The notes beneath the pieces are model-generated. The model did not search any database and had not been told where the DNA came from. It was given only the letters and a program-made list of their open reading frames with translations. From Demequina globuliformis (GTDB taxonomy: Bacteria; Actinomycetota; Actinomycetes; Actinomycetales; Demequinaceae), in assembly GCF_000975155.1 (NCBI RefSeq), contig NZ_BBRG01000001.1, positions 1,264,289-1,328,288 on the forward strand: a stretch of DNA of 64,000 nt, written 5' to 3'. Shown piece after piece: positions 1 through 59,837 of the stretch. Numbering within the stretch: position 1 is the first letter of the stretch; every line of letters begins with the position of its first letter. Made by a program: the position numbers and the translations under genes.

Positions 1-29
1 CCTTCCCCGCCCCCTTCCCCGCCCCCTTT

Positions 30-92
30 CCCGCCAAATGGCTCCATTTCGCTGTTTTAGCGCCCTATAACAGGCGTTTTGTGCCACTTCAG
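30..92 (+). repeat. Left 63-bp inverted repeat of element 1
   Basis: It begins CCCGCCAAATGGCTCCATTT and ends GTGCCACTTCAG. It holds nested palindromes: AAATGG-CT-CCATTT, then CTGTT...AACAG around TTAGCGCCCTAT. It is identical, inverted, to 1188-1250, and differs by one base from the solo copy at 46595-46657. Confidence 0.95.
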
Positions 93-249
93 TGGCGCTA
101 GAGGCGCTCACCGGGCCGATGCCGTGGTCACCGCCCGCTCTCGGCGAGGGCTGCCGCTGGCGTCCCCAGGGCTGATGAGCGTGCCCGGTCATCCACGGAT
201 CGTGTCCGCGTGCTGGGCGGGCCAGCGCAGCGTACCTAGCGTCTGTGCC

Positions 250-1182
250 ATGACACCGCGTTCCAGGTTTGCCGTCTTCTCGCTCGTCGCCGCGTTCCAA
301 GACTCTGGGCTGGCTCATCACCGGCGTGAGGTGGAACAACGCTGGTCCACTGCAACCCTGACGGAGGCGTTGCGCTCCGGCGACGTGGTGCGGGTGGGCC
401 CGGCCTTGTATGCGCATCGCGATGCCGCGCACACGCTCGGGTGCAAGCTGTCGGTCGCCGCGCAGTGGCTGCCGGCCAGTGGAGCAGTGGCCGGCCGCGC
501 GGCACTGTGGTGCGCTGGCTGGCGCGATTCCGAGCCTGCCGCGCTCCACGCCGTCGTGCCACGCGTGGTGCGGGCGCCCGCACCACGCGTCCTGACCCTC
601 CGCCGCACTGACGTTCCGATGGATACCGACGTCATTGATGGTGTGCGCGTGGTCAACCCCGCAGATGCCCTGATCCTCGCGTGGCAATGGACGGCTTCAC
701 GTGATCGCATGGGTTTCGCGCTCGATGCCTTCCGGTCAGGGATCGTGGAGCCTCGCGATGTGGCGCGCCGGTCCGCGTTCCATCCGCGGGTGCCCCAACG
801 CGCCCTCCTCGAGGAGGCCTGCTTGCTCGCGAGCCGCGGCGTCACGTCCATGCTGGAGTACCGGGCGCGGACAGAGGTCTTCACCGGCGACGAATGGAGC
901 GACTGGGAGATGCAGGGTGAGGTCCGTGCGGCCGGCCGTACCTTCATCGTCGACTTGCTGCTCCGAGAAGCAAAGGTGGCCGTGGAGTTCGACGGCTCTC
1001 GCTACCACTCCGACGATGCCCGCCGGCGTCGCGACCTTGAGCGCGATGCGTTGCTCGCGAGTGAGGGGTTTGTGACCATCCGCCTCACGTGGGAGGACAT
1101 CGTGGGCCGCCCAGAGTGGTGCCGCGAACAGGTGCGCAAGGTCGTGGCGCAGCGGACTGCGCAGGTGGGGTTTGGTGTCTGA
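250..1182 (+). CDS. DUF559 (VSR-like endonuclease fold) protein with AbiEi-like N-terminus
   Basis: A protein of 310 aa from the ATG at 250. The N-terminal part (roughly residues 20-60) resembles the winged-helix region found in AbiEi-type antitoxins. The C-terminus carries the DUF559 pattern of the PD-(D/E)XK superfamily: FIVDLLL (D235), VEFDGSRYH (E246, D248), then an Arg-rich R-D-x-E-R-D stretch and GFVTIRLTW. This fold includes the VSR mismatch endonuclease; nuclease activity here is inferred. In-frame ATGs at 79 (inside the left repeat) and 175 would lengthen it, but the added residues look like translated repeat and intergenic DNA. No good ribosome binding site precedes 250. It is the only gene between the perfect inverted repeats, so it is the candidate enzyme acting on the repeat family. 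It could also be an ordinary chromosomal DUF559 protein. Confidence 0.8.
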   Translation: MTPRSRFAVFSLVAAFQDSGLAHHRREVEQRWSTATLTEALRSGDVVRVGPALYAHRDAAHTLGCKLSVAAQWLPASGAVAGRAALWCAGWRDSEPAALHAVVPRVVRAPAPRVLTLRRTDVPMDTDVIDGVRVVNPADALILAWQWTASRDRMGFALDAFRSGIVEPRDVARRSAFHPRVPQRALLEEACLLASRGVTSMLEYRARTEVFTGDEWSDWEMQGEVRAAGRTFIVDLLLREAKVAVEFDGSRYHSDDARRRRDLERDALLASEGFVTIRLTWEDIVGRPEWCREQVRKVVAQRTAQVGFGV

Positions 1183-1187
1183 GCGCC

Positions 1188-1250
1188 CTGAAGTGGCACA
1201 AAACGCCTGTTATAGGGCGCTAAAACAGCGAAATGGAGCCATTTGGCGGG
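1188..1250 (-). repeat. Right 63-bp inverted repeat of element 1
   Basis: Exact reverse complement of 30-92. It starts 5 bp after the DUF559 stop codon and lies between that gene and the convergent lipid kinase gene, so it may also act as a transcription terminator. Confidence 0.95.
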
Positions 1251-1310
1251 AGGGGGCGAAGAGGGAAGGGGCGCGGCGGGACGGGGCGGAGCGCGGAAAG
1301 AGCGGCGAAG

Positions 1311-6001: not shown

Positions 6002-6016
6002 CCCCCGCCCCCCCTT

Positions 6017-6261
6017 CGCCAAATGGCTCCATTTCGTTGTTTTACGGGGCTATAACCGCGGTTTTTTGCCATTTCACAAGGTGGGACCTGTGCGCGGGGT
6101 GCGGCGGCATCGGCCGCACAGCGATGACAGGGACGGGCCGATGCCGTGGTCACGGTGAGTGGGCGTTGTCGCGTGCGCGAGGGGTCGCCGCGCGCCGGCG
6201 CTGAAGCGGCACAAAGTGCGCGTTTTAGGGGGCTATAACAGCCAAATGGAGCCATTTGGCG
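6017..6261. repeat. Dispersed inverted-repeat element 2 (gene-less)
   Basis: The left half 6017-6077 begins CGCCAAATGGCTCCATTT, and the right half 6201-6261 is its inverted, diverged copy ending GAGCCATTTGGCG. The interior carries GGCATCGGCC (about 6108) and GGGCCGATGCCGTGGTCAC (6135-6153); the latter string also follows the left repeat of element 1. No gene is seen between the halves. The element fills almost all of the gap between two convergent genes, so it may act as a bidirectional terminator. Confidence 0.9.
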
Positions 6262-6286
6262 AAAAGCGGGGTGGGGCGCTAGGGCG

Positions 6287-28327: not shown

Positions 28328-28344
28328 CCCACCCCACCCCTTCT

Positions 28345-28538
28345 CGCCAAATGGCTCCATTTCGTTGTTTTACGGGGTCATAACGGCTGTTTTGTGCCAC
28401 CACGGCAGCGGGCCGATGCCCCGGTGACCACGGCATCGGCCCTTCAGTGGGGTGGACGGGTACCTGGGCCGAGCACGCCGGAGTGGCACAAAACGCCCGT
28501 CTAGGTGAGTTAAAACAGCCAAATGGAGCCATTTGGCG
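28345..28538. repeat. Dispersed inverted-repeat element 3 (gene-less)
   Basis: The left half 28345-28404 begins CGCCAAATGGCTCCATTT and the inverted right half is 28481-28538. The interior has the clearest version of the core palindrome: GGGCCGATGCC (28410-28420), CCGGTGACCAC, GGCATCGGCCC (28432-28442). There is no coding capacity. It sits between the SDR gene and pyrE, which are in tandem. Confidence 0.92.
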
Positions 28539-28591
28539 GAGGGGCGAGGGCAGGGGGCGGCCGCACAGAGCGCGCCGGTAGGCTGGTCCGC

Positions 28592-35479: not shown

Positions 35480-36360
35480 GCCTGATCGACATCCTCGTGG
35501 AGCCGCTGCAGTACGACTTCATGGTGCGCGCCCTCCTGGTCACAGTGATGGCGGCAGTGGTGTGTGCGCTGTTGTCGTGTTGGTTGGTCTTGGTCGGGTG
35601 GTCGCTGATGGGGGACGCCGTGTCGCACGCGGTGCTGCCTGGGGTGGTGCTCGCCTACGTCGTGGGCGCGCCGTTTGCGCTGGGGGCGCTGGCGTTCGGC
35701 GTGCTGGCTGTGGTGTTGATCGGGGCGATTCGCGGCACGAGCCGCGTCAAGGAAGACGCCGCGATAGGCATCGTGTTCACGACGCTCTTTGCGCTGGGCC
35801 TGGTGCTGGTGTCCGTGATTCCGTCCCAGACGGACCTGTCTCACATCCTCTTTGGCAACATCTTGGGGGTATCGACGAGCGACCTGTGGCAGATTGGCGC
35901 GCTCGCGCTCGCCGCCCTCGCGGTGCTGCTGTTCAAGAGCCGCGACCTGACCCTCTTCGCGTTCGACCCGGTGCACGCGCACGGGATCGGCCTCAGTCCC
36001 AAGCGCCTGGGATGGCTCCTGCTGGGGCTCTTGGCGATCGTGTCCGTCGTGGCCCTGCAGGTGGTGGGCGTGATCCTGGTGGTCGCGCTGCTGATCATCC
36101 CGGGCGCGACCGCGTACCTGCTGACCGACAAGTTCACGCACATGCTGTGGATCGCGCCGCTGGTGTCGTCGGCGTGCTCGGTCGTCGGGATCTACGTGAG
36201 CTACTGGTTCGATGCGTCGTCTGGCGGCCTCGTCGTCGTCACGCAGGGCGTGTTCTTCGCCCTGGTGTACCTCTTCAGCCCTCGCCACGGCCTGCTGACC
36301 CGCAAGCGCCGCCGCCCCTCCTCGCCAGATGGCACCATTTCGCCGTCTAGGCACGCCTAG
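35476..36360 (+). CDS. Metal ABC transporter permease; C-terminus encoded by a repeat element
   Basis: A 294-aa ABC-3 family permease with about eight TM helices; LVGWSLMGDAVSHAVLPGVVLAY near 37-60 is the family-defining segment. It forms the membrane channel for metal import with the two preceding gene products. The last dozen or so codons (36323-36360) are the left inverted repeat of dispersed element 4, giving a tail PDGTISPSRHA and the stop TAG. The original stop codon has therefore probably been replaced by an insertion, without harm to the TM core. Confidence 0.92.
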   Translation: MSLIDILVEPLQYDFMVRALLVTVMAAVVCALLSCWLVLVGWSLMGDAVSHAVLPGVVLAYVVGAPFALGALAFGVLAVVLIGAIRGTSRVKEDAAIGIVFTTLFALGLVLVSVIPSQTDLSHILFGNILGVSTSDLWQIGALALAALAVLLFKSRDLTLFAFDPVHAHGIGLSPKRLGWLLLGLLAIVSVVALQVVGVILVVALLIIPGATAYLLTDKFTHMLWIAPLVSSACSVVGIYVSYWFDASSGGLVVVTQGVFFALVYLFSPRHGLLTRKRRRPSSPDGTISPSRHA

Positions 36361-36523
36361 ACGGTCATTTCCTGCCATCTCAGATCTTCCGTAGTGAGGG
36401 CCGATGCCTGGGCAGCGCTGCGTACGGCGCGTCACCCCGGCATCGGCCCGCATGGCGGTGCTGAAGTGGCACGAAGTGCTCGGTATGCGTCGCTAAAACA
36501 GCGAAATGGAGCCATTTGGCGGG
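36323..36523. repeat. Dispersed inverted-repeat element 4, fused to the permease 3' end
   Basis: The left half 36323-36383 is a diverged copy (CGCCAGATGGCACCATTTCG) that runs through the last codons of the metal permease. The right half 36461-36523 is closer to the consensus and ends GAAATGGAGCCATTTGGCGG. The interior has GGGCCGATGCC (36398-36408) and GGCATCGGCCC (36439-36449). It ends about 60 bp before the regulator start. Confidence 0.9.
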
Positions 36524-36583
36524 AAGGGCGGAACAATGGGGGGCGCAACGATTGTCGATCCAGCGACCACGGAGGCTGACGCC

Positions 36584-51193: not shown

Positions 51194-51214
51194 CCCACCG
51201 CACCCCCGCGTTTG

Positions 51215-51419
51215 CGCCAAATGGCTCCATTTGACTGTCATGGCGGCCTATAAAGGGCATTCTGTGCCACTCCAGGCCGGCTCCTCCTGTACGGGTGGGT
51301 GCTGCAACGCGGAACTGGAGCGCGCCGATGCCAGGGTCACCCGGGCATCGGCCCTCGCGAAGTGGCACTTTCTGGCTGTTACGCGTGGCTATAACGGCGA
51401 AATGGAGCCACTTGGCGGG
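51215..51419. repeat. Dispersed inverted-repeat element 6 (gene-less)
   Basis: The left half is 51215-51275 (CGCCAAATGGCTCCATTTGA) and the inverted right half 51359-51419 ends GAAATGGAGCCACTTGGCGG. The interior has GCCGATGCCAGGGTCACCC followed by GGCATCGGCCC (51344-51354), an almost symmetrical core. It lies between two convergent genes and fills nearly the whole gap. Confidence 0.9.
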
Positions 51420-51424
51420 AGGGG

Positions 51425-59166: not shown

Positions 59167-59216
59167 GCCTCCGACTGTACGGCCCGGCGCCTGGCCGGCG
59201 TCCACCGCCACCTCCC

Positions 59217-59306
59217 CGCCAAGTGGCTCCATTTCATTGTTATGGCCCGTCAAGGCAGCGAAATGGTTCCATTTGGCACAGGGGTTGGCGGCGGTGGGCC
59301 GATGCC
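59217..59306. repeat. Compact inverted-repeat element 7
   Basis: CGCCAAGTGGCTCCATTT (from 59217) and its inverted partner GAAATGGTTCCATTTGGC (to 59277) are only about 20 bp apart, so just the outer 25 bp of each half remain. GGGCCGATGCC follows at 59296-59306. It lies between divergent genes, unlike the other copies. Confidence 0.8.
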
Positions 59307-59351
59307 GGGGTTACAGTGGAATGGAAGGTTGCGCCTGGGCGGCCGCCGGGA

Positions 59352-59407
59352 AGTGACGGCCACGACGGGGCCGGCGGCGAATCCCCGCCGAGTATGTTCG
59401 GCCAGGG
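59352..59407 (+). repeat. Right copy of the 56-bp split direct repeat
   Basis: Matches 58391-58446 at both ends; the exact 24-mer is at 59384-59407. Located 23-78 bp before the MerR gene, so it could hold that gene's promoter or operator. Confidence 0.85.
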
Positions 59408-59429
59408 GACAAGGGAGTGGAGCGGACAG

Positions 59430-59837
59430 ATGCGAATTGGCGAGCTTGCGGATAAGGCCGGTGTGACCGCCAAGACGGTCAGGTACTACGAGTCGATCGG
59501 TCTGCTCGCTGACCCGGGGCGCACTGCATCGGGCTACCGCGAGTACGACGACGAGGTGCTCAAGCGCCTCACCTTCGTCCGGGACGCTCAAGCCGCCGGC
59601 CTGACGCTCAAGGAGTCCGGCCAGATTCTCGACATGAAGTCCGCTGGGCACGGCACCTGCGAACATACGAGCGCCATGCTCGATAGGCACCTGGCGGACA
59701 TCGAGCAGCAGATCGCGTCCCTCGAGGCTGCCCGAGCAGAACTCCAGACCCTGCGCGCGCGGGCAGACGTCTTGGATCCAGCGTCCTGTACTGACCCCCA
59801 CCGGTGCCAAGTCGTGGGAGACCACGCCCCGGCCTAA
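59430..59837 (+). CDS. MerR-family heavy-metal-responsive regulator
   Basis: A 135-aa regulator. The N-terminal winged helix MRIGELADKAGVTAKTVRYY and YESIGLLADPGRTASGYREY are canonical. A dimer helix (about 78-112) is followed by the metal loop. Cysteines C77, C120 and C126 (GTCEH, ASCTDPHRC) match the metal-binding positions of CueR/ZntR/CadR-type members, so a heavy metal such as copper, zinc or cadmium is the likely effector. ATG 59430 is the canonical start. The best target promoter in the window is upstream of the copper genes at 62988-63019. Confidence 0.9.
   Translation: MRIGELADKAGVTAKTVRYYESIGLLADPGRTASGYREYDDEVLKRLTFVRDAQAAGLTLKESGQILDMKSAGHGTCEHTSAMLDRHLADIEQQIASLEAARAELQTLRARADVLDPASCTDPHRCQVVGDHAPA

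Follow-up and report, generated by a model that had tools for sequence, protein, structure and literature searches.

According to excerpts of two publications (PMC2817692, PMC8049555), a REP/RAYT system consists of a single enzyme gene placed between two inverted palindromic repeats, and of scattered repeats, many of which are arranged as inverted pairs forming hairpins. The same excerpts describe a separate repeat for each enzyme, vertical inheritance and a reduced number of repeats when the enzyme is lacking. Proteins of the AbiEi family are reported, in an excerpt of PMC7319586, to bind inverted repeats and to autoregulate through them, and a DUF559 protein of Caulobacter is presented in an excerpt of PMC12907096 as Vsr-like and as a predicted repair endonuclease. 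Nothing in the excerpted open-licence literature on DUF559 points to repeats, and no report tying DUF559 to inverted repeats was found in open-licence literature, an earlier report elsewhere being possible.

The locus considered here lies at the beginning of a 64,000-nucleotide stretch of the Demequina globuliformis genome (the window; Table 1). Its arms form an extended pair of 69 nt with 97% identity, the 63-nt cores being exact reverse complements of each other, and the sole gene between them is a DUF559 gene encoding 310 amino acids (the reading frame is likewise open from position 79). Family members without a gene occupy six further places in the window; in both points the initial annotation, which had described a DUF559 gene alone between perfect 63-nt inverted repeats with gene-less relatives at six loci, proved accurate. 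The gene has prephenate dehydratase on its left and a diacylglycerol-kinase-like gene, followed by seryl-tRNA synthetase, on its right.

Table 1. Features of the DUF559 locus and gene-less members of its repeat family in the window
Feature	Position	Strand	Remarks
Left inverted-repeat arm	24..92	+	63-nt perfect core 30-92
GGGCCGATGC motif adjoining left arm; recurs in long elements as their inner hairpin motif	113..122	+	
DUF559 gene; AbiEi-like N-terminal part joined to Vsr/I-Bth0305I-like nuclease domain	250..1182	+	profile matches, predicted model
Codons of residues 7-195, AbiEi-antitoxin-like region	268..834	+	6y8q Z 11.6, rmsd 6.3 over 182 residues
Codons of residues 197-304, predicted nuclease domain	838..1161	+	invariant residues, structural alignment of model
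Right inverted-repeat arm	1188..1256	-	63-nt perfect core 1188-1250
Long gene-less element of 270 nt, inner motif between two arms	6009..6276	.	same intergenic site: 62-nt short form in D. sediminicola (L119 13738-13797), none in G010
Long gene-less element	28338..28540	.	site common to D. sediminicola and NBRC 110057
Long gene-less element	36320..36531	.	site common to D. sediminicola
Single arm 3' of a stop codon	46594..46657	+	site common to D. sediminicola and NBRC 110057
Long gene-less element	51211..51421	.	
Short hairpin element	59215..59277	.	NBRC 110057: short element of own sequence in same gap

Several traits of REP/REPIN-RAYT systems recur in Demequina: the DUF559 gene is flanked by two inverted palindromic repeats, the window family is scattered in its own genome, often as inverted pairs, the gene is inherited vertically, and the repeats are specific to their own gene and fewer after loss of the ortholog. 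The enzymes differ, since RAYTs are Y1 (HUH) tyrosine enzymes, which bind and cut their repeat as a single strand, whereas the Demequina enzyme is Vsr/homing-like with an AbiEi-like part; furthermore, the Demequina arms are longer and, by eye and against the published description as excerpted, bear no visible GT(A/G)G head. A RAYT acting in trans was ruled out, as the Y1 transposase profile PF01797 matched in none of the 44 Demequina genomes; among 14 control genomes, 5 were positive.

The protein matches Pfam DUF559 above the curated cut-off (1.1e-7), MTES_1575 below its own cut-off (5.9e-8) and the AbiEi models of PADLOC at up to 3.2e-10. Its AlphaFold2 model has a mean pLDDT of 95.7 and, among the matches listed by Foldseek and VIA-align, residues 7-195 resemble the AbiEi antitoxin 6y8q (an antitoxin of type IV toxin-antitoxin systems), residues 200-304 the I-Bth0305I homing endonuclease domain 3r3p (Z 12.8), residues 197-304 the structure 3hrl (Z 12.7) and the C-terminal part Vsr 1cw0 (Z 9.5). 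The predicted model thus supports an AbiEi-like region joined to a Vsr/homing-endonuclease-like putative nuclease, much as the initial annotation had it when it spoke of a PD-(D/E)XK-type protein with an AbiEi-like part. Seven residues, E203, D235, E246, D248, H253, R265 and G273, are invariant in 93 aligned proteins; family-wide, Pfam DUF559 matches 75, MTES_1575 87 and one PADLOC AbiEi model 66 of the 93. Sequence family, modelled fold and the invariant acidic and histidine residues agree with DUF559/Vsr-like PD-(D/E)XK nucleases. The catalytic domain would have the fold of Vsr and of EDxHD homing endonucleases such as I-Bth0305I, but the Demequina gene is without a visible intron, is tied to dispersed palindromes and encodes an extra AbiEi-like region. 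A homing endonuclease cuts alleles that lack its gene, which is then copied into them; in Demequina the one empty locus examined closely, that of G010, looks like a loss. From AbiEi antitoxins the protein differs by its fusion to the predicted nuclease and by its surroundings: at the window locus, no AbiEii nucleotidyltransferase toxin gene was detected among the nearest neighbours by Pfam or PADLOC.

Profile matches also bear on a quite improbable explanation, in which the protein would serve defence or act as a restriction-type nuclease, with the repeats either labelling the cell's own DNA or acting as decoys that hold the enzyme. Besides the AbiEi models, PADLOC's PDC-S37 matches 28 of the 93 members, DpdF 21 and Hhe 6, and each of two NCBIfam anti-phage models matches 6. 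These matches are however at the level of domains, the three nearest neighbours of the window gene have no PADLOC match, and self-marking leaves the joint change of the two arms, described below, unexplained.

DUF559 genes and repeats of their own

DUF559-family matches number 2-10 per genome in 37 Demequina genomes. A test of 93 DUF559 genes, drawn from 35 Demequina genomes, found inverted repeats at the borders (score at least 32) of 63, and of 4 among the 140 neighbouring genes that served as controls (Fisher 1e-28; Mann-Whitney 3e-25); at a score of at least 40 the figures are 52/93 and 2/140, the two strongly flanked control genes scoring 72 and 58. The remaining 30 DUF559 genes, including two of the four tested in the window's genome, are without such repeats at the lower threshold. 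The set began with 94 loci, of which L035 was dropped (no tblastn hit); two contig-edge matches, G020:C31:156181, about 50 weaker matches among those listed and any matches beyond the listing were left out, G002 and G004 are absent, and L063 (G030), at a contig end, was counted as negative with a score of 29. Elsewhere in the order, a score of at least 32 was reached by 18 of 26 DUF559 genes and by 2 of 46 controls; this test comprised 27 loci, one of them unusable at a contig edge, and 20 of the 27 had been chosen, among the matches listed, for their length and their distance from contig ends. The pairing of DUF559 genes with flanking repeats is thus real, in the genus as in other genera of the order. 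Many of the arms are palindromic by eye and, in Demequina as in the other genera, the arm sequence differs from gene to gene.

Each family of repeats largely belongs to its own gene. When the arms of 16 genes from 16 genomes were compared with all 16 genomes, 144 of the 150 matches listed were to the genome of the arm itself; because a palindromic arm matches on either strand, there are more rows than places, and the 144 include the flanking arms. The other six matches listed comprise five of G003 to the G013 family and one of G028 to the G001 family, and G003 bears a G013-family arm beside a DUF559 gene of its own (L185). Copies away from the gene occur, among the matches listed, in 13 of the 16 families, as scattered copies do in REP/REPIN-RAYT systems, and the flanking arms alone were listed for the second family of the window's genome, for G010 and for G034.

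In the labels of this study the window's genome is G000, D. sediminicola NBRC 105855 is G008, NBRC 110057 is G015, D. activiva NBRC 110675 is G016, NBRC 110053 is G032, NBRC 110056 is G034 and Demequina sp. B12 is G094. Three genomes possess a close ortholog (73-77% identity), and in these the window family's core is present in 59, 39 and 37 copies. Among the 41 of 44 genomes without a known close ortholog (the search covering 37 of them, 35 with the protein, at a best identity of 48%, and two with the family alignment), it occurs twice in G010, once in G316 (50% complete) and not at all in 39 others. Abundance of the repeats in genomes lacking any DUF559 gene, which the initial annotation had named as evidence against it, was in those literal terms not encountered, the core having 0-2 copies in the 41 genomes; other DUF559 genes do occur in these genomes, accompanied by different repeats. 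In G024 a single arm match, a weak one (1.8e-4), was noticed.

A reading in which another enzyme or slippage of host replication spreads the repeats, the DUF559 gene merely tending to adjoin them, is given a similarly small chance as the defence reading. It would accommodate ordinary genes that are sometimes bracketed by repeats as well, and the short and long forms found at one site in different species. It is opposed by the disproportion between 63/93 DUF559 genes and 4/140 neighbours, by the separate repeat family of each searched DUF559 gene, by the near disappearance of the family where the ortholog is lost and by the failure to find a Y1 transposase in the genus (44 genomes, the transposase search covering Y1 only). 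It can be said that pairing, specificity and core counts bear out a bond between gene and repeat family in the manner of REP/RAYT, and that a functional gene-repeat pair is very probable.

Gene-less copies and their placement

The window's genome (2.62 Mb) contains 51 arm matches and 59 copies of the exact 15-nt core CAAATGGCTCCATTT, the reversed pattern having no occurrence, which excludes a chance origin of the repeats. The copies take three forms: long elements, where two arms enclose an inner hairpin motif; arms standing singly; and a hairpin of 62 nt in which the starts of the two cores lie 41 bp apart. Core pairs of the 62-nt type number 11 in the window's genome, 5 in D. sediminicola and 11 in Demequina sp. 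B12. When folded, one of the 62-nt copies gives an almost perfect stem (-37.2 kcal/mol as DNA, z -14.6), and the folding of a single arm is unremarkable (z -1.2).

Repeat clusters in this genome lie between convergent genes in 19 of 35 cases, against 13 of 65 gene pairs in the window (p 7e-4, simple gene-calling script), and between divergent genes in one of 35; the copies are thus found mostly behind genes and not in promoters. This placement touches on an unlikely account, though a less improbable one than the two above, in which the protein is a repressor-like binder that autoregulates through its flanking repeats as AbiEi proteins do (see above), the scattered copies are selected operators or terminators and the nuclease domain is otherwise employed. 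The precedent of AbiEi, the convergent excess and the stability of the short hairpin are all in keeping with it. A repressor would nevertheless hardly be expected to have its copies mostly behind genes with a single cluster between divergent ones, nor its nuclease residues invariant, and terminators need no common sequence, yet the sequence is family-specific and tracks the gene.

The motif GGGCCGATGC occurs 23 times in the window (at 113, 3772, 6135, 28410, 28433, 36398, 46683 and 16 more positions) where 0.8 occurrences would be expected; in the relatives G008, G010, G015 and G016 there are 7-24 per 80 kb. As it is frequent even in G010, which is nearly without the arm family, it is a separate frequent word. 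Inverted arms about 0.6-1.3 kb apart also bracket ordinary genes (L008 1500-2800, L289 1068-1998, L291 1794-2423). A DUF4349 gene is among the bracketed genes; its role as cargo between two arms was ruled out, the gene being matched in 39 of 41 genomes.

Inheritance, loss and turnover

The DUF559 gene stands beside the kinase gene at 6 of 30 loci examined and, in addition, in B12 and D. litorisediminis, and all eight loci with the gene at this position have flanking inverted repeats. Presence of the gene at this locus in all relatives regardless of repeats, the other outcome that was to speak against the initial annotation, was accordingly not observed. The same neighbours surround the ortholog in eight species, so that a hopping element is ruled out and the gene, judged by its genomic surroundings, is inherited in place and vertically; insertion sequences differ in this respect, the gene-bearing copy of this ortholog not being found at different sites. 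Of the earlier reading as a whole, the REP/RAYT-like bond of gene and repeat stands and the autonomous hopping element does not. In NBRC 110057 (L061/L092) and in D. litorisediminis (L234) the repeat-bounded segment has the opposite orientation with respect to its neighbours, which is what recombination between the arms would yield.

Left and right arms of one locus are more alike than arms of the same side in different species. For the 52-nt arms of the eight orthologous loci, to which the comparison was confined, identity within a locus is 0.79-1.00 (mean 0.90), against means of 0.58 and 0.57 for same-side arms between species and 0.43 for shuffled ones. All eight loci have both arms, which suggests that the arms are older than the species splits; if so, the two have changed together. 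Their likeness could also stem from ordinary gene conversion along with selection for a binding site.

In G010, which shares 85.8% identity with the window over 23 proteins, the stop codons of the two neighbours lie about 10 bp apart where gene and arms would sit. One of its two cores is part of a mutated hairpin at a site common to the window's genome, D. sediminicola and B12 (in the last seen in part); because this hairpin survives at a common site, the ancestor of G010 most likely had the repeat family, and the empty locus looks like a loss of the gene. This interpretation draws on the surviving hairpin, since the unrooted tree of five genomes, in which G008 and G010 stand apart from G000, G015 and G016 (support 0.944), does not itself show a loss. 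The window gap 59190-59440 (251 bp) has its orthologous flanks about 10.6 kb apart in G010.

Positions of the scattered copies are largely shared. Of the seven non-flanking sites of D. sediminicola six were mappable, each to an interval that contains an element in the window's genome too (one interval being wide); three of four sites of NBRC 110057 do likewise, though their sequence is that of its own family, with AT at the core centre in 4/4 cores (80-kb region, two of them flanking arms) against CT in 43 of 46 cores of the window's genome. The filled or empty state was checked at seven sites. Site 57458 is filled in G000 only; 553789 and 650220 are filled in G000 and G008 and empty in B12 and G010; 550911 and 1371568 are filled in G000 and B12 and empty in G010 and G008; 492419 is filled in all, in a decayed state in G010; and 616092 is empty in B12 (poor alignment). 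Filled and empty sites, which the initial annotation had suggested comparing in close strains, thus exist for the small copies only, the DUF559 gene keeping its neighbours. No target-site duplication was visible at the filled and empty sites compared, whose flanks are much diverged. MITEs mobilised by DDE transposases are likewise short inverted-repeat elements that resemble the termini of a unit with a gene, but the gene in the Demequina unit is that of a DUF559 nuclease and no such duplication was seen. As most positions are common between species, spread is slow or old.

A putative mechanism and its meaning

At the level of sequence, the comparison shows pairing, specificity, likeness of arms within a locus, near-absence of the family after loss, filled and empty sites, slow turnover and conserved nuclease residues. 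We favour, with a probability of roughly 0.6, a widespread partnership of nuclease and repeat that resembles REPIN/RAYT, is built on an unrelated enzyme and involves repair-based copying after cleavage. With the same degree of confidence, the nuclease itself would act as maintainer or spreader of the repeats. In such a partnership the DUF559 protein would read its own palindromic repeat through the AbiEi-like winged-helix part, and the Vsr/homing-endonuclease-like domain would nick or cut there. Repair of the cut from another copy would keep flanking arms and scattered copies alike, and would occasionally give rise to further intergenic hairpins, for the most part located behind genes. The gene itself would stay at its locus and be inherited vertically, and once it is lost the repeat population would decay. 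Several observations speak against this reading: 30 of the 93 DUF559 genes fall below the score threshold, three of the 16 families have flanking arms alone among the matches listed, ordinary genes and two controls are bracketed as well, no target-site duplication was visible, and the copies mostly occupy sites common to several species. A more specific form of this reading, to which we give an even chance, holds that actinobacteria have evolved a class of repeat-keeping AbiEi-Vsr fusions independently of RAYTs, in which cutting of a private palindrome and templated repair maintain, homogenise and slowly spread hairpins over speciation times, the specificity drifting with the repeat.

The arrangement is held to be new because its layout is REPIN/RAYT-like, although the enzyme that defines RAYT systems was not found, and because none of the other families compared fits; as far as open-licence literature shows, the findings suggest an enzyme-repeat partnership not described before. 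A stricter reader may count it as a variant of REPIN/RAYT, which is the one case known to us of a domesticated enzyme with a private repeat population. If the proposed partnership is true, it would be a second, non-homologous case, and an enzyme with private repeats would be a general evolutionary solution. Dozens of natural enzyme-repeat pairs would then be at hand for studying the co-evolution of DNA specificity and its targets, and a role would be suggested for DUF559, a common family of “unknown function”. Orphan hairpins in the intergenic DNA of actinobacteria may have their explanation here as well.
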